From the NCBI GenBank assembly GCA_035691485.1, contig DASSIZ010000060.1, positions 1 through 41,821 on the forward strand: a DNA stretch of 41,821 nt. The letters run 5' to 3'. Made by a program: the position numbers and the translations under genes. Numbering within the stretch: position 1 is the first letter of the stretch; the number at the start of each line of letters is the position of its first letter. The notes under the pieces were generated by a model. The model made no database searches and was not told the origin of the DNA. It saw only the letters and a program-made list of their open reading frames with translations. This DNA is from Terriglobales bacterium (GTDB lineage: Bacteria > Acidobacteriota > Terriglobia > Terriglobales > Acidobacteriaceae). Below, piece after piece: positions 4,260-38,559 of this stretch.

Positions 4260-5108
4260 ATGAGCTTTAAGCCTGCCATCATCCTCGCTCTCGTGGACCT
4301 AAGTCCGGCGACCGGAGATGTGCTCGCCTGGACGCGGCTGTTTGCCCAAAAAACTTCCGCCAAGGTCCGCATCCTGCATGTCATCTGGCCGCCCGCAACG
4401 CGCGTTAGCAGTCAGGAGGAAGGCGCCATTCTCCTCGACGAATTCGAAGAGCGCCGCCTTGATCTGCGCGGCTCCATCAAAGCTCACGCCCAGGAAATCC
4501 TGGGCGACATCCCTTTCGAAATGGAGGTTGGCGTGGGCCACCCGGTGAAGGTTGCGCTGGAGACCATCGCCGCCCTTCGTCCCGGGCTGATCGTGCTCGG
4601 TAGCCATGGCCACGACGGAATTACGCGCTCACTCCTCGGTTCCGTCGCCGAAAATGTTGTGCGCGAGTCGGCGTTTCCCACCCTCATAGTGAAAGCCACC
4701 GACGTTGAGCCGGCCCTGAAGACAATTTTGTGTCCCGTGGACCTCGGCGACGTGGCAGCGCAATCCCTCGATACCGCAGCCGAAATGGCCAGGGTTTTCG
4801 GCGCACGGCTGGATGTGCTCCGCGTCCTCCCGCAGTGTCCCAACGCGGATGAGGAATTGAAGGCGATGCGGCAGTGGGTGCCGGAGATTGTTGCCCAGCG
4901 CTGCCCGACTTCGGAGTCGGTTCACACCGGCGATACCGCCGAGCAGATTGTTGTCTTCGCGCGCCAGCACGACTCTGATCTCATCGTGGTCGGCGCTGAG
5001 CCACGACGATTTCTGGAGTTTACCGTGCTCGGGCGCACCACCGAGCGCGTCGTGCGCCACGGTCCGTGTTCCGTGCTGGTGGTTCGCCTTGAGCCGCGCA
5101 GCAACTAG
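4260..5108 (+). CDS. Tandem-domain universal stress protein (UspA family)
   Basis: 282 residues with two UspA domains. The first carries GSHGHDGITRSLLGSVAENV, a complete ATP-binding signature. The second has GAEPRRFLEFTVLGRTTERVV, partly degenerate. The ATG at 4260 lacks a clear Shine-Dalgarno. It is transcribed away from the other tandem UspA gene; the 218-bp gap presumably holds both promoters and contains a TGGGGC/GCCCCA hairpin (4197-4202 and 4209-4214). Two paralogous two-domain Usps back to back suggest a shared stress regulon. Confidence 0.88.
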   Translation: MSFKPAIILALVDLSPATGDVLAWTRLFAQKTSAKVRILHVIWPPATRVSSQEEGAILLDEFEERRLDLRGSIKAHAQEILGDIPFEMEVGVGHPVKVALETIAALRPGLIVLGSHGHDGITRSLLGSVAENVVRESAFPTLIVKATDVEPALKTILCPVDLGDVAAQSLDTAAEMARVFGARLDVLRVLPQCPNADEELKAMRQWVPEIVAQRCPTSESVHTGDTAEQIVVFARQHDSDLIVVGAEPRRFLEFTVLGRTTERVVRHGPCSVLVVRLEPRSN

Positions 5109-29789: not shown

Positions 29790-30175
29790 CGTGCCTGCCT
29801 TGATGGAAGGCTCTACTTGCACCGAGCTGTGTTCGACTCGACCCATATTCCCTAACTCTGCCCGCGAAGGGCCTCTTCATTGTCACGGACACTCGATTGT
29901 AGGTTTCGAGCAAAACCCGGGTCAACGACAGCCCCTTCAATGGGAATGCCCGAAGTAACCGTCGGGTAACCTGATCCACTCGAAGGCACTCGACGCCCGG
30001 TTCTCGCCTGCCTCACCCACTACTTTACAACCCAAGCTGTTGAAACCTGCCGTGTTCTCCTGCATCTTATCTGCGCATGTGGGGACAGCCTGGCGGTTTT
30101 ACTTGAACCCGCCTCTCCTGAAACGCCCGTCGGTCGTTTTCAACCCGTCGTCCGCGCAGCCGAAGGAGATATCCC
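29790..30175. other. 386-bp divergent intergenic region
   Basis: Lies between cysS (minus) and the Tat-exported transglutaminase-like gene (plus). The only clear signals are the AGGGAAT before the possible cysS upstream start and the AAGGAG before 30176. No operon-specific motif or small gene identified. Confidence 0.5.
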
Positions 30176-31288
30176 ATGAACCGTCGTCATTTTCTGCGAT
30201 CCACCAGTATGGCGTGCGCTGGTCTGGCGCTTTCCAATCCGCAGCGCCTCTTTGCCGAGCCCCTGTCTGACGAGCTGTCCACATCAGGCGCCTGGCGCAC
30301 CTTCGAAGTCATAACTCGCGTCGAAGTTCTCAAACCCTCAGGAATCACACATGTATGGCTGCCGGCAGCGCTCATCGGCGCTACCCCTTTCCAGAAGACC
30401 CTCGCCAACACGTTCCACGCCGAAGGCGGCGCCGCCAAATTGGTCGAGAATAAGGCTGACGCGCTCGGAATGATCGCTGCCACTTTTCCTGCCGGAGTGA
30501 AGCCGGTGCTTTTCGTTACCAGCCGCGTCGCCCTCAAGAACTATTCCGTCGATCTCACCTCCCCGGGGCATCCTCGCAAAGCAAGCCAAGCAGAACTGCA
30601 GCATTACCTCCAGCCTACGAAGTCGATTCCCACCGACGGCATCGTCCGACAGAACGCAGTCGAGATCACCCGCGGCGCCACCACCGACGTTGAAAAGGCG
30701 CGCGTTATCTACGAGTGGATCGTGGAGAACACCTTCCGCGACCCGAAGACGCGCGGCTGCGGACGCGGCGATATCCGCTTTATGCTCGATTCCCGCGACT
30801 TGGGCGGCAAGTGTGCCGACCTCAACGCACTCTACGTGGGCCTGGCGCGCGCCGTCGGTCTTCCCGCCCGTGACGTCTACGGCGTTCGCGTTGCCAAGTC
30901 CCAGTTGGGCTACAAGAGCCTCGGAGTGGCGTCAGAAACCGTCACCAAGGCCCAGCACTGCCGCGCTGAGGTTTACCTGCAGGCCCATGGCTGGGTTCCC
31001 GTCGATCCTGCCGACGTGCGCAAGGTCGTGCTGGAAGAGCCGCCCGGCAACCGTCCTCTCGACGACAACATGGTCAAACAGGCCCGCGCCCGTCTCTTCG
31101 GTTCCTGGGAGATGAACTGGATGGCCTACAACTTTGGCCACGACGTGGTTTTGCCGGGATCGAGTGGCCCGCCCATTGCCTTCCTCATGTATCCGCAGGC
31201 GGAAACGGCGGAAGGCCGTCTCGACAGCCTCGATCCCGATCACTTCAAGTATGAGATTACCGCCAAGGAGATTTCCTCGGCGGCGTGA
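30176..31288 (+). CDS. Tat-exported transglutaminase-like protein
   Basis: 370 residues; AAGGAG eight bases before ATG 30176. Tat signal MNRRHFLRSTSMACAG (twin Arg at 3-4). A transglutaminase-core domain lies in the C-terminal half: GGKCADLNALYVGLARAVGLPAR with the nucleophilic Cys, then HCRAEVYLQAHGWVPVDPADV with His and Asp. A beta-rich N-terminal half (about 40-180) precedes it, as in similar secreted transglutaminase-like proteins. It probably acts on envelope peptides or proteins. A second protein with this core exists at 24.8 kb, not closely alike. Confidence 0.85.
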   Translation: MNRRHFLRSTSMACAGLALSNPQRLFAEPLSDELSTSGAWRTFEVITRVEVLKPSGITHVWLPAALIGATPFQKTLANTFHAEGGAAKLVENKADALGMIAATFPAGVKPVLFVTSRVALKNYSVDLTSPGHPRKASQAELQHYLQPTKSIPTDGIVRQNAVEITRGATTDVEKARVIYEWIVENTFRDPKTRGCGRGDIRFMLDSRDLGGKCADLNALYVGLARAVGLPARDVYGVRVAKSQLGYKSLGVASETVTKAQHCRAEVYLQAHGWVPVDPADVRKVVLEEPPGNRPLDDNMVKQARARLFGSWEMNWMAYNFGHDVVLPGSSGPPIAFLMYPQAETAEGRLDSLDPDHFKYEITAKEISSAA

Positions 31289-31325
31289 CTCGGAATGGCT
31301 GGATCGCCGGCGCTTCCTGGCCTGG

Positions 31326-32153
31326 CTATTGGCTTCGCGAGCGAACCATCGGACCAGTTCCTCGGAATGGTCGCATCAGCATCCAGCCAATCCCAAGGCT
31401 GCTCTCGTCCTGGCATTCTTCGAGCCCGACCATCATCTGCTCGTGGCCGCTGGCCGGCTCCGCCAGATAGGTTCCAAACATATGGTCCCAGAATCCGAAT
31501 ACGTCGGAAAAGTTCCTGGATTGTTCGGCGACTTGCGCCGAGTGGTGAATGCGATGCATGTCCGGCGTGACAAATAGCCAGTGCAGCCAGCGGTCGATAG
31601 ACGGCGGGAGTGACACGTTGGCATGGCTGAAAAAGCTCTGCACGGCAGAGGCCAGTTCCACGAACAACACCGCGCTGACCGGCGGCGCCAACAGCGCGAT
31701 GGTCGCGATATTGGCTCCTTGCAGCACCATAACTTCCAGCGGATGCACCCGCGCCCCGGTGGAGACATCGAAGTCCGGATCCGAATGATGCACCTGGTGC
31801 ACGTGCCACAAACGGGTCGCATGCAGGCACCAGTGCACCGCGTACCGCGTGAAATCCAGAACCAGCACCGCGACAATCCATCGCACGGCAAGCGGCAGAG
31901 CGGCTTTGTTGAGTAAACCAAACCGGCTGTCCGACACAGCCAGCGCGATGGCTACCGGGGTGGCTCGTAACGCCGTCGTCGAGAACAGCGTGCTCAGCAG
32001 CAGGATCAGGCCATGGCGCGTCCAGCGGCGCTCGAGCGGCATTTTCAGCCTCCGCCGGGGGCGCCACGATTCCCATATCGCGATCGCGAAAAACGTCGCT
32101 ACAAACGTCAGCCAGTACGTTCTGATCTCGAGTTGCAGCCAGTGCGTCGGCAT
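31326..32153 (-). CDS. Fatty-acid hydroxylase / sterol desaturase family membrane protein
   Basis: 275 residues with membrane helices and the diiron histidine boxes HWCLH (107-111), HQVHH (119-123) and HRIHH (200-204), plus H177. Family enzymes hydroxylate or desaturate lipids such as carotenoids, sterols or fatty acids in the membrane. ATG 32153 lacks a clear ribosome site. It starts 45 bp downstream of the exosortase stop codon on the same strand, so it may be co-transcribed with the exosortase and the VPEID array. Substrate unknown. Confidence 0.83.
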   Translation of the reverse strand: MPTHWLQLEIRTYWLTFVATFFAIAIWESWRPRRRLKMPLERRWTRHGLILLLSTLFSTTALRATPVAIALAVSDSRFGLLNKAALPLAVRWIVAVLVLDFTRYAVHWCLHATRLWHVHQVHHSDPDFDVSTGARVHPLEVMVLQGANIATIALLAPPVSAVLFVELASAVQSFFSHANVSLPPSIDRWLHWLFVTPDMHRIHHSAQVAEQSRNFSDVFGFWDHMFGTYLAEPASGHEQMMVGLEECQDESSLGIGWMLMRPFRGTGPMVRSRSQ

Positions 32154-32198
32154 ACCGTTACTAGTTGGCGTTAGCCTCCTGCCGTTGACCCGTTCTCT

Positions 32199-33893
32199 TT
32201 ACCACAGCGACCAGTTGTGAAATAAGAGCACGTAAGCGGCAAGCAACGCGTTCGCGCTGGCGTGGGCAACCACCGCATCGCCCATTCTGCCTCGTCGCAG
32301 CAGCAGCACACCGAACAGGAGGCCGGCGGCAATTCCGGGTAACCAGCGAGTGCCGTGCAGAATGCCGAAGACCACGGAGGACACCAGCAGCGCGGTCCAG
32401 GGAATACTCCGGAACGAAAAAGCAACCGATTCGAAATCGCTGGCTACCAGTCGCCGCAGCAGGAAGCCGCGAAACGCAAGCTCCTCGGCGATGGGCACCG
32501 TTACTACGGCTCCCAACAGGCGCAGAGCGATCCAACCGAAGCGCGTCGCGGCCGGCGCCGCCATCAGTTCGGCGGGCATTCCCTGTGCCACGCCGTGGCC
32601 CATCGCGCGGTCTGCCGCAATCCACATCACGGCAACGATCGCGCCCACCGCAGGCGCCAGCCAGCCGCATTTCCAATTCAGCCGGTCGTACCGCCGCCGG
32701 TAAGTCCAGAGCATGGCCGCTGCCGCCAGGAACCGCAACGGATAAAGCCACTCGAAACTTGCCGTGGCCGCGCCGGCTATCAATCCCGCTGCCAGAATTG
32801 CCAGGAAGGGAAGAAGGTACCCTGCGGTCGGGTTCTCGGCCTGCGCTTCACGCGATTCGGCGCTGGCGGCTCGCGAAGTAAACAGCGAAACGCGCCCGAT
32901 CACCAGGCAGAAACTCACCGCAATGATGTTGAAAAAAATCCATCCCGCTTGCGAATGAAAGCCGCGCGCGGCGATCTGCGGGAAGCCGGCATGGCCGATC
33001 AGGATCAAGGCCGTGATTCGGACCACGTTCAGCAGGAAGCTGAGCATGATCGCGGCCGGCAACAGCAGTAGCGACTGCGGAAATCGGCATTCCCGCCGAA
33101 ACAGGAGCAACCACAGGGTCCCAAAGGCGAGCACCAGTCCGGCGCCCTCAAGACCGGAACACTGCGGCGAAATTGTGACCTTGAAAGCCTGCGTGCCGAG
33201 CAGCATGTTCGCCGGTTCGGCAAAGACCGGCGATACCACCGACTTCAGCAGCAGCTTCGATAGGCCGAAGGTGGCGTACGTTGCCTGCCGCCACAGCAAA
33301 CGCGCGGCGCCTCCGGCCAGGCTGGCCGCAACCGTGCTTACCACCGCATAAATCCACAGATACCCAGTCCCGCGTAATAACTGCACCCAGCCCGTCCAGG
33401 GAAAGAATGCCAAGGCCGCAAGCCCGATCGCGCTCACGCCCACCACAAGCCAACTGGCTGCGACGGCATCGCTCCACAAGCCGGTCGCTGAATTCGTGAA
33501 CAGAACGGCAGACAGTTCCGCGAACACCAGCAGGGCGCAGCCGTGACCCGCCAGCAGCCCCCAGGAAAAACTCGGTGATTCGGTCGCACCCGGCTCTGCG
33601 AACCGCGTGTTTCGTTTTTTCAGGAAAGCGAACGTGGTAAAGATGGCGCAAAAACCGATGACTGCCCGCAGCGCGTAAGCTCCCCAGGCACCCACGATTC
33701 GGGTGAGTCCCGAACTGTGCGCCAGAGATGCAGTGTCCAGCCATAGAGAAATTGCGACCGCTTCCGCGGCGAACAGCAGGGCAAGCAGCACAATCCGCCG
33801 CACCAGCGCGCGCGCCGAATGGTTTCCCAGCGCTAAGGAATTGCATTCCGGCGGAAACGCCGGATTGGGTTGGAGCAGGCTGCAGTCAGACAC
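32199..33893 (-). CDS. xrtE: Exosortase E fused to CPBP (CAAX-type) protease
   Basis: 564 residues (GTG 33893; a GTG at codon 31, giving MRRIVLLALLFAAEA, is an alternative start). Exosortase half, about 30-335: multiple helices, nucleophile Cys245 in SPQCSGLEGAG, Arg292 in LNVVRI, His313 in GFHSQAGW. CPBP/Abi protease half, about 360-560: EELAFR (470-475, two Glu and Arg475), His513 in GILHGTR and His544 in VAHASANA. This layout is that of the 'exosortase E/protease, VPEID-CTERM system' family. Seven VPEID-tailed micro-proteins are encoded directly upstream. It likely cleaves them at the sorting motif in the inner membrane; the CPBP half may cut the remaining anchor. Confidence 0.9.
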   Translation of the reverse strand: MSDCSLLQPNPAFPPECNSLALGNHSARALVRRIVLLALLFAAEAVAISLWLDTASLAHSSGLTRIVGAWGAYALRAVIGFCAIFTTFAFLKKRNTRFAEPGATESPSFSWGLLAGHGCALLVFAELSAVLFTNSATGLWSDAVAASWLVVGVSAIGLAALAFFPWTGWVQLLRGTGYLWIYAVVSTVAASLAGGAARLLWRQATYATFGLSKLLLKSVVSPVFAEPANMLLGTQAFKVTISPQCSGLEGAGLVLAFGTLWLLLFRRECRFPQSLLLLPAAIMLSFLLNVVRITALILIGHAGFPQIAARGFHSQAGWIFFNIIAVSFCLVIGRVSLFTSRAASAESREAQAENPTAGYLLPFLAILAAGLIAGAATASFEWLYPLRFLAAAAMLWTYRRRYDRLNWKCGWLAPAVGAIVAVMWIAADRAMGHGVAQGMPAELMAAPAATRFGWIALRLLGAVVTVPIAEELAFRGFLLRRLVASDFESVAFSFRSIPWTALLVSSVVFGILHGTRWLPGIAAGLLFGVLLLRRGRMGDAVVAHASANALLAAYVLLFHNWSLW

Positions 33894-33948
33894 AAGGCAC
33901 CAGGGCCTTTAGCTCTCTCAAGTCCGAGCGCCAAAGATGCGTGAACAA

Positions 33949-34107
33949 TTACTTCTTCCTGGCCTTGATGACGAGCACAGCGCCGGCAATCAGGGTGATC
34001 GCCGAAACCGCCGTCGCGCTGTCGATTTCCGGTACGACATTAATTCCCGCGGACGCAGCGCTGGCCAATCCTGCAATCAACAACGTCGTTCCGATCAGTT
34101 TTCTCAT
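33949..34107 (-). CDS. VPEID-CTERM micro-protein, copy 7
   Basis: 52 residues, MRK class. Signal-like segment MRKLIGTTLLIAGLASAASA, variable linker GINV, VPEID at 25-29, hydrophobic segment about 33-47, basic end KARKK. Start ATG 34107, Shine-Dalgarno upstream in the shared leader. Last copy before the exosortase gene (55 bp away). It carries one of two exact 104-bp repeats of its neighbour (start region and leader). Confidence 0.9.
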   Translation of the reverse strand: MRKLIGTTLLIAGLASAASAGINVVPEIDSATAVSAITLIAGAVLVIKARKK

Positions 34108-34356
34108 GCCATCCTCTCCAGGCCTGCAACTACGCTTTCGACAAACTACTTCTTCCTGCTTCTGATGACGAGCGCTGCGCCCGCAATCAACGTGATCGCC
34201 GAGACCGCCGTCGCAGCGTCGATTTCCGGCACAGTGGAAATAGCTCCGGCGAACGCAGCGCTGGCCAATCCTGCAATCAACAACGTCGTTCCGATCAGTT
34301 TTCTCATGCCATCCTCTCCAGGCCTGCAACTACGCTTTCGACAAACTACTTCTTCC
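34053..34356. repeat. Exact 104-bp direct repeat pair with 200-bp spacing
   Basis: Bases 34053-34156 and 34253-34356 are identical for 104 bases. The unit covers the N-terminal codons of copies 7 and 6, their ribosome site and leader, and the last codons of the preceding copy. A second pair, 34467-34517 and 34860-34910, is 51 bases exact (start regions of copies 5 and 3). Confidence 0.97.
34146..34307 (-). CDS. VPEID-CTERM micro-protein, copy 6
   Basis: 53 residues, MRK class. Signal-like MRKLIGTTLLIAGLASAAFA, linker GAIST, VPEID at 26-30, hydrophobic segment, tail RSRKK. ATG 34307; stop TAG at 34146. N-terminal 18 residues are identical to copy 7 (same DNA repeat). Confidence 0.9.
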   Translation of the reverse strand: MRKLIGTTLLIAGLASAAFAGAISTVPEIDAATAVSAITLIAGAALVIRSRKK

Positions 34357-34507
34357 GGCCGCGGATGACGAGCGCAGCGCCGGTAATCATGGTGATCGCC
34401 GAGACCGCGGCCGTGCCGCCAATTTCCGGAACCGCCAGACCGAGGCCCGCGAATGCGACGCTTCCTAATCCCACAACCAACAGCAGCATTCCCACAAGTT
34501 TCTGCAT
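34346..34507 (-). CDS. VPEIG-variant micro-protein, copy 5 (chimera-like)
   Basis: 53 residues. N-terminus MQKLVGMLLLVVGLGSVAFA is of the MQK class and nearly that of copy 3, linker GLGLA, motif VPEIG at 26-30 (Gly in place of Asp), but the hydrophobic segment AVSAITMITGAALVIRG is of the MRK class. ATG 34507 with GGGAGG upstream. Confidence 0.88.
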   Translation of the reverse strand: MQKLVGMLLLVVGLGSVAFAGLGLAVPEIGGTAAVSAITMITGAALVIRGRKK

Positions 34508-34550
34508 GCCATCCTCCCGGTGTTACGCGTGTCGATGAACTCGTCTGTCC

Positions 34551-34709
34551 TTATTTCTTCCTGCCTCGGATGATGAGCAGGGCGCCGGCAACCAGGGTGA
34601 TCGCCGAGACCGCCGTTGCAGCGTCGATTTCCGGCACCGTAAAAGTTCCGGCGATCGCAGCGCTGGACAAGCCTGCAATCAACAACGCCGTTCCGATGAG
34701 TTTCCTCAT
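34551..34709 (-). CDS. VPEID-CTERM micro-protein, copy 4
   Basis: 52 residues, MRK class: MRKLIGTALLIAGLSSAAIA, linker GTFT, VPEID at 25-29, AVSAITLVAGALLIIRG, tail RKK. ATG 34709 is preceded by GGGGGATGG. Confidence 0.9.
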   Translation of the reverse strand: MRKLIGTALLIAGLSSAAIAGTFTVPEIDAATAVSAITLVAGALLIIRGRKK

Positions 34710-34741
34710 TCCATCCCCCGATCCTGCAACTGCGCTTTCGA

Positions 34742-34900
34742 CTATTTCTTTCTGCCCCGGACGACGAGCATCGCACCGGACAGCAAGGTGAGAGCTGAGA
34801 CTGCGGTTGAGCCGTCAATTTCTGGTGCGGCAACAGGCCCGGCCAAGGCAACGCTTCCCAATCCCACAACCAACAGCAGCATTCCCACAAGTTTCTGCAT
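34742..34900 (-). CDS. APEID-variant micro-protein, copy 3
   Basis: 52 residues, MQK class: MQKLVGMLLLVVGLGSVALA, linker GPVA, motif APEID at 25-29, AVSALTLLSGAMLVVRG, tail RKK. ATG 34900 has GGAGGATGGC before it. Too short and in a different frame from a longer non-coding frame over the same DNA, so easily missed. Confidence 0.88.
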   Translation of the reverse strand: MQKLVGMLLLVVGLGSVALAGPVAAPEIDGSTAVSALTLLSGAMLVVRGRKK

Positions 34901-34945
34901 GCCATCCTCCTGGATGCCGCGCCGACGAACTGAACTCGTCTCTAT

Positions 34946-35101
34946 TTATTTCTTTCTGCCCCGGATGACGAGCATCGCGCCCGACAGCAGGGTGAGAGCC
35001 GAGACTGCGGTTGAGCCGTCAATTTCCGGTACCGAGGGGCTCGCGAGCGCCGCGCTGGTTAATCCTGCAACCATCAATGCGATCCCAATCATCTTCTGCA
35101 T
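34946..35101 (-). CDS. VPEID-CTERM micro-protein, copy 2
   Basis: 51 residues, MQK class: MQKMIGIALMVAGLTSAALA, linker SPS, VPEID at 24-28, AVSALTLLSGAMLVIRG, tail RKK. ATG 35101 with GGGAGGATGGC upstream. Confidence 0.9.
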   Translation of the reverse strand: MQKMIGIALMVAGLTSAALASPSVPEIDGSTAVSALTLLSGAMLVIRGRKK

Positions 35102-35144
35102 GCCATCCTCCCGGTGTTACCTGTGTCAATGAACTCGTCTGACC

Positions 35145-35300
35145 TTACTTCTTTCTGCCCCGGATGACGAGCATCGCGCCGGACAGCAAGGTGAGAGCCG
35201 AGACTGCGATTGAACCGTCAATCTCCGGCACGGCGGTAAACGCGAACGCAGCGCTGGTTAACCCTGCAACCATCAACCCAATTCCAATGATTTTTTGCAT
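35145..35300 (-). CDS. VPEID-CTERM micro-protein, copy 1 (first in transcript)
   Basis: 51 residues from ATG 35300 (an in-frame ATG 27 bases upstream is possible but GGGGGATGGT fits 35300). MQK class: MQKIIGIGLMVAGLTSAAFA, linker FTA, VPEID at 24-28, AVSALTLLSGAMLVIRG, tail RKK. First of seven in the direction of transcription, with the gap 35301-35505 upstream. Confidence 0.9.
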   Translation of the reverse strand: MQKIIGIGLMVAGLTSAAFAFTAVPEIDGSIAVSALTLLSGAMLVIRGRKK

Positions 35301-35505
35301 ACCATCCCCCGGACATCGCCAGTGCAATTATTCCTCCACTGACCTCGCCATGTTCTCAATACCTTGCGGCGTTCCAGGATTTCCACAGCGACAATACATT
35401 GCGCATAATGTCTGTCACTTTCCCACAATAAATTCGCGAAGCCAGTTCCCGCGCCTGGCGCTCCACCACTTTCGTGGTGCTCATGGCGGCGAAGATTTCT
35501 TGGAT
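35301..35505 (-). promoter_or_regulatory. Upstream region of the VPEID array
   Basis: 205 bases between copy 1 and the CDP-alcohol transferase stop. It has ACATT-N6-AATGT (35396-35411), operator-like, and CACCAC-TTTC-GTGGTG (35464-35479), a 6-bp stem with a four-base loop (GAAA on the minus strand) but no T-run. The array promoter is probably here; no clear -35/-10 pair was resolved. Confidence 0.35.
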
Positions 35506-36090
35506 TTATTGCCCTGACGCTGCCGGGCGTCCGCTCTTTTCGTAGGTCCGGATGCGCTGCCCGATCAGAAACACGTAGTGCAGTCCCGAGATGAGCGTGA
35601 AGGCGAAGGTAGCGTACAGACCCACTTTGCGGCTGAAGAATACCCAGGGGCTGGAGTCCACCTGAAACAGCAGCACGAAAAAAATCGTTGCCACCTGCGC
35701 GCCGGTATTGATCTTGCCGAAGATGCTGGGACGAAAGTCGCGGATGGAAGTCGTCGCGTAGAGCACGGCGCAGGTCAACAGGATGCACAGGTCGCGGCTG
35801 AAGACCAGCACCGTGTACTTCCACCGGATGAGGTGCAGAATCGACAGTACCAGGAACAGCGTGCTCAGCAGCAGCTTGTCGGCGATGGGATCCAGGTACT
35901 GGCCGAGCTTGGTCTGCTGGTGCAGCCCGCGCGCCAAAAGGCCGTCCAGTCCGTCGCTCACCCCCGCGATGACCAGCAGGATCAGCGCCAGCCGGTAATT
36001 GTTGTCCACGATGTTGATGATGATGAATGGAATGATGATCAGCCGCATCAGCGTCAGCTGGTTGGGCGCGGTGAGAAGCTGGCGAAGCAT
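35506..36090 (-). CDS. CDP-alcohol phosphatidyltransferase family protein
   Basis: 194 residues, five or so membrane helices. CDP-alcohol motif present: DGLLARGLHQQTKLGQYLDPIADK region (residues 49-72). ATG follows the stop codon of the upstream gene without a gap (TAG 36091-36093, ATG 36088-36090), so translation is coupled. Its motif and layout resemble PgsA or cardiolipin-synthase-type enzymes; the bona fide PgsA is at 22.6 kb, so this one may make another phospholipid. Specificity cannot be read from sequence. Confidence 0.85.
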   Translation of the reverse strand: MLRQLLTAPNQLTLMRLIIIPFIIINIVDNNYRLALILLVIAGVSDGLDGLLARGLHQQTKLGQYLDPIADKLLLSTLFLVLSILHLIRWKYTVLVFSRDLCILLTCAVLYATTSIRDFRPSIFGKINTGAQVATIFFVLLFQVDSSPWVFFSRKVGLYATFAFTLISGLHYVFLIGQRIRTYEKSGRPAASGQ

Positions 36091-36441
36091 CTAGCGACGG
36101 CGCTCCGTCGAAAATTCCGGCCCGTCGAAAATTTCGACGGCGCTGCTCCCGCTCTTCGACGCGAAACGTTCCGCCAGCGACGGAATGCTGCCGTTGCGCG
36201 CGTCCAATTCAATGCGCTCGATGCGGTGCATGGGAAAAAAAACAGCGCTTGCCGCGACCGGTTCGCCTTCCCGCACCAGCCGCGAAAAATCATCGAACGA
36301 GTTCAAGTCGATGCCGCGCACCCCGAGCCCGGCCGTGGTCAGTTCCATCACCACGCCCCAGAATTTTTCGCGCGGTGAATTCAGCGTCACCAGGACAACG
36401 GCGCCCCGGGCAAATATCGCGGCTGTCTCCGACTCTGGCAC
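36091..36441 (-). CDS. Conserved hypothetical protein with PREKFWG motif
   Basis: 116 residues from GTG 36441, no good Shine-Dalgarno. Soluble, probably small beta-barrel: GAVVLVTLNSPREKFWGVV, then GVRGIDLNSFDDF and an acidic C-terminal half. A similar uncharacterised type is remembered from acidobacterial genomes; it may resemble PilZ or RNA-binding barrels. Stop overlaps the next gene start context (no gap). Confidence 0.7.
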   Translation of the reverse strand: MPESETAAIFARGAVVLVTLNSPREKFWGVVMELTTAGLGVRGIDLNSFDDFSRLVREGEPVAASAVFFPMHRIERIELDARNGSIPSLAERFASKSGSSAVEIFDGPEFSTERRR

Positions 36442-36483
36442 GGTTCGATTGTCAACGCCCGCAGGCGCGATTGCAACAGTTCT

Positions 36484-37875
36484 TCATCGCGTGTACAGGG
36501 CGATGATGCGCTCAATCGCTCGCCGGCACACGGCGCAAAACGCATCGTGGCGCGTGAACATGATGCAGTTCTCCTGCGGCCGGTAGTAGCCCTTGGCTTC
36601 GTAGTTCGCGCCCTCGAACGCGCCGATCTTGCCCGAGTGCTGGTCGGAGGACAACAGCTGATCTTCGTGCTTCTTTTCCTCGCTGAAGAGCGCGTCCATC
36701 TCCGATTCAGGGCGGTTCTGCTTGCGGATTTCGCGGCGGCGAGCCTGGATGTCCCGCTCGTATGCTTCAAATGCTTCTTTGTTCCACGGCGTCGGAACCG
36801 GTGTTCCCGGCGACACCATGTCTTTCCACTTGAGCGCCGCCGGATCGAGCAGCGCGGTGATGTTCGGCTCCCATGGCTCCACCTTGTGCGCCGGCGGCAG
36901 GTAGGAAACGTCGGAGGTGTAGTACTCGTCGGCCAGGCCGGCGAAATGATGCCCGAATTCGTGCACGAACACGTACGGCGACCACAGGCTGTCGGCGGCC
37001 ACCGTGCTGTACAGGTTAAAAATGCCGCCCCCGCCATAGGTCGCGCCGTTGACCAGGATTTCAACGAATTCGTAGGGCGCGAACGATGCCATGTCCCGGA
37101 AGCTGCGATTGTCGAAGGTAAGGATGTAGCGCTCCGATCCGAATGCGTCGTAAGTCGCGCCGGCCGGATTGCGATGGTGAATGCCCGTGGACGGTCGTGA
37201 GATTCCGGATTCCGGCGACGCCGGGCACAGCCCCCACACGTTGAAGTCGGATCGGTGCTCCTTGAATGGCGAAGTCGAGAACAGTATTTCCATCAGCCGC
37301 CGCGCGTCCTTCTCGAACTTCGCCCGCTCCGCCGCGGTATAGCCGTCACCCAGGATCAGGAAGTCAACCTTGTTGGCGGGATCGCCGGACTTCTGCAAGG
37401 TCAGCAGCGGGCCCGGCGAAGGCGGCGCCGAGGTATCGATGAAGGGGTCTTTCGGATCGGCGGTCGTGCTCCAGATTTCGCGGAAGGCATTGCCGGCGTC
37501 GCGCTTCATGAGCGAGATCTGCACCGGCCCGGTGGGAGCGGGAAAGCGCAGTGACTCCGAGAAGGTGCGGTTCATCTGCTTGGCCTCTTCGGTCTGCTCC
37601 CATTCCCCGAAAATCGAGGCAAAGCCGCGTGAGTACACCACGCGATTGCTGGCCCGGTCGCGCACCTCGAAAAAATATTTTCCGGTATTGGTGTCGTCGA
37701 TCGCCTGGCGCGGGTCCCCGGGCCACGGGGTCGGCTCGATCACGATGCGGTCCAGGGAAAACGTCTCCTGGTGGTCGTTGCCGGTGTGGTAGTAATCCAC
37801 GCGCATCGTCTTCAGCGCGGCGAAGGCCGGGACCGCCAGCAGGATTGCAACTGCGGCGAGGAAGAGCTTTTTCAT
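36484..37875 (-). CDS. M64-family (IgA-peptidase type) exported metallopeptidase
   Basis: 463 residues from ATG 37875. Signal peptide MKKLFLAAVAILLAVPAFA (1-19). Zinc-binding HEFGH (305-309) followed by DEY (316-318), the M64 pattern HExGHxxxxLxDEY. An N-terminal M64_N domain (about 23-150) precedes the peptidase domain. Secreted or periplasmic protease; substrate unknown. TACAAT lies just upstream of the start and may be a -10 of a nearly leaderless message. The next genes on the same strand are the PREKFWG protein and CDP-alcohol transferase. Confidence 0.88.
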   Translation of the reverse strand: MKKLFLAAVAILLAVPAFAALKTMRVDYYHTGNDHQETFSLDRIVIEPTPWPGDPRQAIDDTNTGKYFFEVRDRASNRVVYSRGFASIFGEWEQTEEAKQMNRTFSESLRFPAPTGPVQISLMKRDAGNAFREIWSTTADPKDPFIDTSAPPSPGPLLTLQKSGDPANKVDFLILGDGYTAAERAKFEKDARRLMEILFSTSPFKEHRSDFNVWGLCPASPESGISRPSTGIHHRNPAGATYDAFGSERYILTFDNRSFRDMASFAPYEFVEILVNGATYGGGGIFNLYSTVAADSLWSPYVFVHEFGHHFAGLADEYYTSDVSYLPPAHKVEPWEPNITALLDPAALKWKDMVSPGTPVPTPWNKEAFEAYERDIQARRREIRKQNRPESEMDALFSEEKKHEDQLLSSDQHSGKIGAFEGANYEAKGYYRPQENCIMFTRHDAFCAVCRRAIERIIALYTR

Positions 37876-38082
37876 GATGCGGGATTGTACATCTCGACGT
37901 TTTGCGTTGGCGAGGAGCGGAACGAACCCGAAAGATGGCTGGATGAAACAAGAGGCTCCGAAAGAATTGGCAGCTCGACCGGGAACCATCGACCTGTCCG
38001 GCAAGCCGGGGGACGCTCTAACCTTGGGTCAAAAAATGGTAGGCCCGAATGGACTCGAATCGGTTTTGTGACGTTGTCTGGC

Positions 38083-38559
38083 TCACATGTGTGTCATGCT
38101 GAAAGTGCCTGTTTGGCTTGTGCAAGCGGGCGTATGTCCGGTGAGGTTGAACGTCCCCGAGCCTGAACCCATGCCCATCGTCATGGTGCCCTGCATGATC
38201 ATGGTGTTTGTTTCGGTGCCGCCCGATGACATCGACGATATCGTGATTGTCATCATGCCGCCGTTCATCATTCCGGGCCCCATCTGACCGCTCATCACGG
38301 TGCCCGCGCCGAAGCACTGGGCCAGCGAACTCATGTTCGTGAAGTTCATGTTGCTACCAGTGAGCGCGGTATTGTTCTGCGTCAGGTTGAATGTGAACGA
38401 GCCCAGTTGCTGCCCTGACGAACTGGCCAGTGTCTCAGACCACGCGCCTGTTGCCAGGTTTGTGGTTCCTGTCGTTCTCGTCACTGATGACGTAGTTCCA
38501 CCGCAAGCAATCAAAGCGGCGGTTAACAGAATCGCTGCAAACGTGCCCGCGCGCTTCAT
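38083..38559 (-). CDS. Met-rich lipoprotein, hypothetical
   Basis: 158 residues; GGAGGG before ATG 38559. Lipobox ALIAC with Cys19, so lipid-anchored to the envelope. The mature part is Thr/Ser/Gly-rich, with a Met-rich stretch MSGQMGPGMMNGGMMTITIS and a second, QGTMTMGMGSGSG. Two Cys (in AQCFGAG and PACTSQ) might form a disulfide. Beta-strand pattern LGSFTFNLTQNNTALTGSN resembles small lipoproteins of unknown function. The Met clusters might bind copper or silver; that is only a guess. Confidence 0.82.
   Translation of the reverse strand: MKRAGTFAAILLTAALIACGGTTSSVTRTTGTTNLATGAWSETLASSSGQQLGSFTFNLTQNNTALTGSNMNFTNMSSLAQCFGAGTVMSGQMGPGMMNGGMMTITISSMSSGGTETNTMIMQGTMTMGMGSGSGTFNLTGHTPACTSQTGTFSMTHM

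Follow-up and report, generated by a model that had tools for sequence, protein, structure and literature searches.

The usual view of exosortases is that they sort surface proteins. The founding paper of 2006, in the passages drawn on here, describes PEP-CTERM/EpsH (XrtA-type) sorting as an exopolysaccharide-linked system with a tripartite C-terminal signal and a median of eight diverse substrates per genome, and reports four EpsH-CAAX protease fusions (PMC1569441). Archaeosortase A of Haloferax volcanii, a member of the exosortase superfamily, cuts a tripartite signal at the C-terminus and attaches a lipid to the end so created; for its function it depends on lipid-synthesis enzymes, which in Methanosarcina are encoded next to artA, its substrates include the S-layer glycoprotein, and neither a CPBP fusion nor mini-substrates appear in the passages of that source used here (PMC7157517). 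Here we analyzed a stretch of 41,821 nucleotides (the window) on contig DASSIZ010000060.1 of the Terriglobales assembly GCA_035691485.1, in which a gene for exosortase E (XrtE) is preceded, in transcription order, by seven tandem mini-genes for putative XrtE substrates (mini-substrates) and followed by a gene for a PF04116 hydroxylase. The locus resembles the exosortase E/VPEID-CTERM system (TIGR04162/TIGR04161) in having an enzyme that fits the curated model and, beside it, substrates with a VPEID-type motif, a helix and a basic tail. It differs in that the mature part of each substrate is predicted to be 3-5 residues long, the substrates stand in seven tandem copies and score below the curated cut-off, and a hydroxylase accompanies them. 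Judged from its genes, we regard the locus as a new variant, an exosortase module whose detected substrate set is entirely cargo-less, with the largest array in our survey and a hydroxylase partner. Unlike PEP-CTERM/EpsH it has one mini-substrate family, and the only sugar-related recurrent neighbour identified at XrtE loci was an epimerase/dehydratase cluster, found in 6 of 83 sequences.

MrtJ, the enzyme of another minimal cassette, presumably lacks an exosortase domain. The JDVT-CTERM/MrtJ cassette shares with the window the minimal combination of a CPBP-type sorting protease with its target but, in the portion of the source cited, has one target (PMC11980579), and enzyme-plus-one-target cassettes are also described for rhombosortase in the corresponding passages (PMC3237569). 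Searches of the open-licence literature found no paper on exosortase E mini-substrate arrays or on a hydroxylase link, and the exosortase passages of papers retrieved there deal with EpsH and archaeal sortases; a 2011-2012 classification paper, outside that scope, may mention short VPEID proteins.

The enzyme is an exosortase E by its match to TIGR04162 (238.9 bits against a cut-off of 150, residues 37-563 aligned to positions 2-515 of 516), as an initial annotation of this DNA, made from the letters alone, had proposed. Its exosortase half matched PF09721 (E 3.1e-10), and C245, R292 and H313, which we take to be the Cys/Arg/His catalytic triad, are invariant in 41 aligned homologues. The CPBP/Rce1-like half, with its EExxxR and His motifs, matched PF02517 (E 8.3e-16), and E470, E471, R475 and H544 are likewise invariant in the 41 homologues. 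No other exosortase-family match was found in the genome. The AlphaFold2 model of XrtE had a mean pLDDT of 86.6; the PDB gave no match, either by sequence profile or by a Foldseek search with this model at E<=0.001.

Each of the seven mini-genes has an ATG start with a purine-rich ribosome-binding site immediately 5' of it (GGAGAGGATGGC, GGGAGGATGGC, AGGAGGATGGC or GGGGGATGG-type), and they follow one another with a period of 191-202 nt which, by subtraction, leaves six intergenic gaps of 32-45 bp. Every copy carries a basic residue near the N-terminus, a hydrophobic segment, A-x-A at residue 20 and a linker of 3-5 residues, followed in 7/7 copies by (V/A)PEI(D/G), a hydrophobic helix and a basic tail ending in RKK; the seven share one residue in each of 23 of 54 alignment columns. 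AxA-type cleavage after residue 20 was predicted for all seven by a simple -3/-1 rule and not by SignalP. Open reading frames, ribosome-binding sites and alignment all confirmed what the initial annotation had described, seven genes of 51-53 codons with their own Shine-Dalgarno sequences that encode a signal segment, linker, VPEID motif, helix and basic tail. The ratio of nonsynonymous to synonymous polymorphism (pN/pS) was 0.15-0.52 across the 21 pairwise comparisons of the copies, as expected for reading frames under purifying selection, and because every pair fell in this range we consider the mini-genes to be more than chance. Summed pN/pS was lower in the last 28 codons (0.31) than in the first 21 (0.41) and column information was also higher in the motif and tail, so that constraint is stronger there. 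By these sequence measures the seven-copy array is real and conserved. Copy 5 is a mosaic, its N-terminal half like copy 3 and its C-terminal half like copies 6 and 7, and a 188-nt repeat at 90% identity runs across gene borders; the mosaic structure points to recombination within the array.

A mechanical substrate scan of the whole window returned only these seven candidates. For copy 7 the scan took a TTG nine codons upstream as the start, and the ATG at 35300 was used instead; this copy carried one extra upstream codon (35303) in the curated-model, Pfam and alignment runs. Rfam gave no match at gathering scores in positions 30000-38500, and a scan for promoters and terminators, which found three promoter-like sites against 0.8 expected and four terminator-like sites against 2.7 expected, was not used.

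The mini-substrates are VPEID-like yet lie under the curated cut-off. The VPEID-CTERM model TIGR04161 reported six of the seven copies at 15.9-29.8 bits (E 4.6e-7 to 0.01), so the initial assignment to this model stood for six copies at the level of a reported match and failed at the level of the 33-bit cut-off, which none reached, and for copy 3, which was not reported at all. Since all seven fall below the cut-off they are not formal VPEID-CTERM members; in descriptive terms, all seven combine a VPEID-CTERM-like tripartite sorting signal with a predicted signal peptide beside XrtE. The PEP-CTERM models PF07589 and TIGR02595 were listed for none of them at E<=1. Among 30 mini-substrates (set A7) 19 matched TIGR04161 at E<=0.01, and a 115-aa Methylomicrobium substrate scored above the cut-off at 54.4 bits, the sole one to do so of nine others tested. 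As a genome-wide detector TIGR04161 proved too strict, recovering copy 4 only, and it was replaced by a profile (A4) built from 42 of the 94 distinct tails found, the seven window copies among its rows; in tails starting with GTG the first residue was read as M and not V, which affects position 1 only. Over the whole genome A4 recovered the seven copies at E 1e-12 to 1e-16, and the eighth match had an E of 0.3. No larger XrtE substrate was found in the genome by A4, in an assembly 98.5% complete in 145 contigs, where one could have been missed. The pairing of this enzyme with these substrates is well supported: the only exosortase and the only seven tails of this kind found in the genome lie together, and here the claim of an exosortase E with dedicated, cargo-less VPEID-type substrates held.

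To place the window among related loci, the best 80 of 194 confirmed XrtE relatives in genome_contigs were kept; these, with the window and loci L015 and L016, make up 83 sequences (L014 and L064 come from the same genome, as do L015 and L069; phylum labels are those of submitters' titles). A candidate substrate lay within 3 kb of xrtE in 70 of the 80 loci and one of at most 130 aa (49-124 aa) in 68, so the window is no isolated case. Across the 83 sequences, candidates of any length were on the xrtE strand in 97 of 103 cases, and none of at most 130 aa lay farther than 3 kb away in these sequences, most of which extend only about 2 kb further on each side. That the mature protein is missing had been presented as a peculiarity of the window, and this did not hold, for 47 of the 68 Acidobacteriota candidates are of 49-55 aa, and the linker is of four residues or fewer in 34 of 68. 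Candidates of Pseudomonadota are 59-359 aa long and those of Planctomycetota 60-68 aa plus two of 233-236 aa; larger substrates were seen in Pseudomonadota and at one planctomycete locus, and in other XrtE clades the same tail comes after about 20-300 residues beyond the predicted signal peptide. From these sizes and linkers we conclude that much of this exosortase family, and not just one locus, has substrates without a mature domain. Among 63 short candidates the linkers are poorly conserved, 71% of their residues being A, V, P, S, T or G and 14 of 301 charged, and the predicted fragment up to xPEI is 6-9 residues in 43.

Most of the 80 loci have one candidate (55), twelve have two and ten have none; the richest are L095 with four large proteins, L039 with five and L064 with six on both sides of xrtE, so that the window's seven is the highest count at one xrtE in the survey. 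The five of L039 (3841-4845, + strand) stand in tandem ahead of xrtE and form its second-largest same-side array. Several full-size PEI-tailed proteins of 216-359 aa lie at XrtE in a methylotroph (L095, 2763-9618) and a planctomycete (L093, 1239-4837), and these two loci offer a natural comparison with cargo-bearing substrates. In L018 an apparently decayed mini-substrate, of which by eye only the tail is recognisable, lies upstream of an intact xrtE (4755-4895, + strand), and another xrtE of that assembly is accompanied by a candidate substrate (L028). The cassette also occurs in the cultured species Silvibacterium bohemicum, Terracidiphilus gabretensis, Acidicapsa dinghuensis and Singulisphaera acidiphila (L055, L061, L073 and L077), with substrates of 63-102 aa. 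A 324-aa candidate at L059, counted in the survey, is probably spurious. In a simple clustering of neighbours, which missed some short or overlapped genes, no other family occurred in more than seven of the 83 sequences.

The PF04116 gene adjacent to xrtE was missed by the initial annotation, the interpretation of which was partly supported overall. Its product belongs to the family (96.1 bits against a cut-off of 31); the nearest NCBIfam model, that of the ornithine lipid hydroxylase OlsE (NF052566), gave 73.2 bits against a cut-off of 475, so the window hydroxylase is not OlsE. Of 11 stretches surrounding tail matches that lie apart from XrtE or belong to unusual genomes, four had a PF04116 protein beside the mini-substrates. 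A profile (A5) of ten PF04116 proteins of this mini-substrate-linked type was run on 21 genomes and gave seven matches above 300 bits; each adjoins mini-substrates except that of the window, which one gene separates from them, and six of the seven are in the profile. On a test set of 26 genomes, 25 of them new to A5, five matches above 300 bits were obtained in four genomes, none had helped to build the profile, and all five lay 18-313 bp from a mini-substrate tail match. The 28 weaker test-set matches (at most 180 bits) included one (70 bits) at 448 bp from a tail match, the others being without a tail nearby. A rough chance product for the five test adjacencies, assuming random placement, is 6e-15; two of the five hydroxylases carry one in-frame stop within the match. 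The two sets combined hold 12 matches above 300 bits in 46 distinct genomes (11 with a match), 11 of them 10-313 bp from a tail match; six of the 12 helped to build A5 and six did not, and genome G450 is in both sets.

In a tree the linked hydroxylases stand apart from 19 of genomes without mini-substrates, and 12 of 13 fall in one starred set, the long-branched L081 protein lying outside it. Around hydroxylases of 19 other genomes of the phylum (out of 39 others with a match at E<=1e-45) no mini-substrate was found in flanks of mostly about 1.5 kb, a weak control, since the same width shows none at the window's own hydroxylase (stretch L150) either. Orientation to the mini-substrates varies, tail-to-tail in L140, L143 and L147 and divergent in L144, which argues that the link is not just one inherited operon. 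On the test genomes this PF04116 subfamily shows itself, by gene neighbourhood, as a recurrent third partner of mini-substrates even where XrtE is elsewhere, a link that is new here.

In the 396 genomes of the window's phylum, with at most three candidates scored per genome, XrtE exceeded its cut-off in three, all of which also carry tails; five further genomes had a match below cut-off that covered the protease half only. Three other genomes of the 396 had tail matches, one strong and without XrtE (G054), two partial and weak. In G054 the mini-substrate (L148, G054:C32, 6006-6239, - strand) lies, by eye, beside a LysR-like gene, and the only hydroxylase is a partial one at a contig end elsewhere. 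Tails were found in 18 of 18 and 25 of 26 genomes chosen for their XrtE loci, counts which, given that choice, are no unbiased test of co-occurrence. Close to the window XrtE is uncommon, with 2 of 61 relatives carrying it (window included) and none of the three genomes of the same genus. In the XrtE tree the window's closest grouping, not starred at SH-aLRT 89, is with a Bryobacter-type sequence, while another clade (97, starred) takes in two family mates, which is suggestive only of lateral transfer; no XrtE relative was found among IMG/VR viral contigs, so there is no sign of phage carriage.

The reading we prefer, tentatively and at somewhat under an even chance, is that of a three-part module which turns the precursors into peptides of about 5-10 residues, probably lipid-anchored, with the hydroxylase modifying the lipid or the product. 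Mini-genes, xrtE and hydroxylase gene would probably form one operon. The seven precursors would be exported by their N-terminal signal peptide with AxA-type cleavage, and XrtE would recognise xPEI(D), the hydrophobic helix and the basic tail, cutting near the motif to leave an N-terminal product of about 5-10 residues. If XrtE works like archaeosortase A, the new C-terminus may be passed to an amine-bearing membrane lipid, so that a very short peptide would stay tethered to a lipid, either on the cell surface or in the periplasm. The PF04116 protein would hydroxylate the lipid (the peptide less likely), the CPBP half may cut a second time or dispose of what is left of the tail, and multiple copies may raise dosage and yield slightly different peptides. 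A bolder extension, possible but doubtful, is a class of ribosomal ultrashort lipopeptides made from signal-plus-sorting-signal precursors, with XrtE as a peptide-to-lipid transferase and the PF04116 protein (di-iron-type) as finishing enzyme; it would be multi-copy, patchy and perhaps mobile, found in Acidobacteriota and, in related forms, also in Planctomycetota and Pseudomonadota, and its exosortase would be biosynthetic and not a surface-protein sorter.

Here, then, is an exosortase family whose substrates in many genomes appear to hold no protein to sort, and the locus in the window suggests a system devoted to making very short peptides that are probably anchored in the membrane. The presumed reaction is chemically simple, with a precursor of about 50 residues, a product of about 5-10 residues and one enzyme, and this simplicity makes what exosortases attach to their substrates a direct mass-spectrometry question, for which the linked hydroxylase points to the lipid as the place to look. 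Should the product be a lipopeptide, it would reveal a new way in which poorly studied soil phyla make ribosomal lipopeptides.

MroQ is a CPBP-like protease. It is conceivable, if unlikely, that the mini-substrates are precursors of a pheromone and are processed at either end, much as AgrB and MroQ process AgrD; the paired protease halves of XrtE would then make two cuts and release 5-10 residues as a free peptide signal. A pheromone was among the roles suggested initially, as was surface decoration, and both are conceivable. In the passages cited on that system a short peptide is cut from between an N-terminal helix and a C-terminal tail by two membrane proteases, of which the integral membrane protease MroQ takes off the leader of AgrD (PMC10885120). 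The mini-substrates share the layout of N-terminal helix, short middle and C-terminal recognition tail, two intact protease domains are present within one protein, and the 6-9 residue fragments predicted for most short candidates would be of suitable size. The AgrD system is Gram-positive, however, and no receptor pair was seen here; no receptor, kinase or regulator recurred beside the loci in our simple clustering, in which only some clusters were identified, and neither AgrB nor AgrC was among those few, no direct search for them having been made. The poorly conserved linkers, which differ even within one array, also fit a signal badly, and the hydroxylase would be left unexplained. We rate as equally improbable that the products are uncleaved two-helix membrane micro-proteins with PEI as the turn, which regulate the membrane or organise lipids and which XrtE destroys or is regulated by. 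The AlphaFold2 model of copy 4 does show helices at 2-22 and 30-50 with a short loop between them, at modest confidence (pLDDT 75.8, pTM 0.37), and the C-terminal helix is the more conserved half, but AxA-type sites are predicted in all seven copies, and the same tail stands behind about 20-300 residues in other XrtE clades, which fits a sorting signal.

Two further explanations turn on the absence of a larger partner. Decoys or enzyme scaffolds that occupy XrtE competitively and tune the sorting of other proteins, one of the roles suggested initially, would account for a multi-copy, cargo-less set; we now think this very unlikely, for A4 found no other substrate in the genome to compete with or larger one to protect, and near xrtE most loci have only short candidates. 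Least probable of all is that the array is a by-product of recombination, a store of sorting tails which can be recombined onto larger genes. Mosaic copy 5 and the repeat across gene borders would suit it, whereas the complete reading frames with start signals, the pN/pS below 1 and the lack of a larger recipient gene detected by A4 in the genome speak against it.

Several observations weigh against the three-part lipopeptide module that we prefer. Expression, cleavage and lipid attachment are predicted from the genes, and exosortase lipidation is carried over from archaea. Not one copy reaches the TIGR04161 cut-off, and copy 3 escapes the model. Twelve of the 80 XrtE loci lack a candidate of at most 130 aa (L018, L027, L030, L034, L038, L057, L062, L065, L078, L089, L093 and L095); several of these are contig ends, L018 holds a decayed remnant, L057 a partial frame, and L093 and L095 large candidates only, and A4 found a tail match somewhere in all seven whole genomes searched (L018, L027, L034, L038, L057, L062 and L065). 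Some genomes have mini-substrates far from any XrtE, with extra clusters on XrtE-free contigs, and G054 has a mini-substrate but no XrtE match at E<=1e-20. The hydroxylase adjoins xrtE itself in only 8 of 82 distinct loci, and so is tied more closely to the peptides than to the enzyme; in 35 of the 46 genomes no hydroxylase match exceeded 300 bits. Taken together, these two counts mean that it cannot be essential to the XrtE reaction.

Table 1. Features of the window, in order of transcription (all on the reverse strand).
Feature	Position	Strand	Length	Remarks
Peptidase M64 family protein	36484..38004	-		PF09471
CDP-alcohol phosphatidyltransferase	35506..36090	-		PF01066
Mini-substrate copy 7	35145..35300	-	51 aa	FTA-VPEID mature start predicted; first in transcription order; A4 E 9.6e-16
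Mini-substrate copy 6	34946..35101	-	51 aa	SPS-VPEID; A4 E 1.6e-16
Mini-substrate copy 5	34742..34900	-	52 aa	GPVA-APEID; mosaic; A4 E 1.2e-15
Mini-substrate copy 4	34551..34709	-	52 aa	GTFT-VPEID; best TIGR04161 match (29.8 bits); A4 E 6.1e-16
Mini-substrate copy 3	34346..34507	-	53 aa	GLGLA-VPEIG; without TIGR04161 match; A4 E 1.3e-12
Mini-substrate copy 2	34146..34307	-	53 aa	GAIST-VPEID; A4 E 1.1e-15
Mini-substrate copy 1	33949..34107	-	52 aa	GINV-VPEID; last in order, 55 bp before xrtE; A4 E 2.0e-14
Exosortase E / CPBP (Rce1-like) intramembrane protease fusion, XrtE	32199..33893	-	564 aa	TIGR04162, PF09721, PF02517
Fatty acid hydroxylase superfamily protein	31326..32153	-	275 aa	PF04116, E 3e-27; in the mini-substrate-linked subfamily; 45 bp after xrtE

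Other neighbours in the window were also considered. A transglutaminase-like neighbour was dropped as a partner, being present in the window only among the XrtE loci examined. The CDP-alcohol phosphatidyltransferase gene immediately precedes the array on its strand, and its family, PF01066, is presumably also that of archaeosortase-linked PssA; as an ArtA-PssA-like partner it was rejected, since it occurred at no other XrtE locus examined, and its presence is put down to chance or housekeeping. The Peptidase M64 family protein is encoded upstream of the array region.

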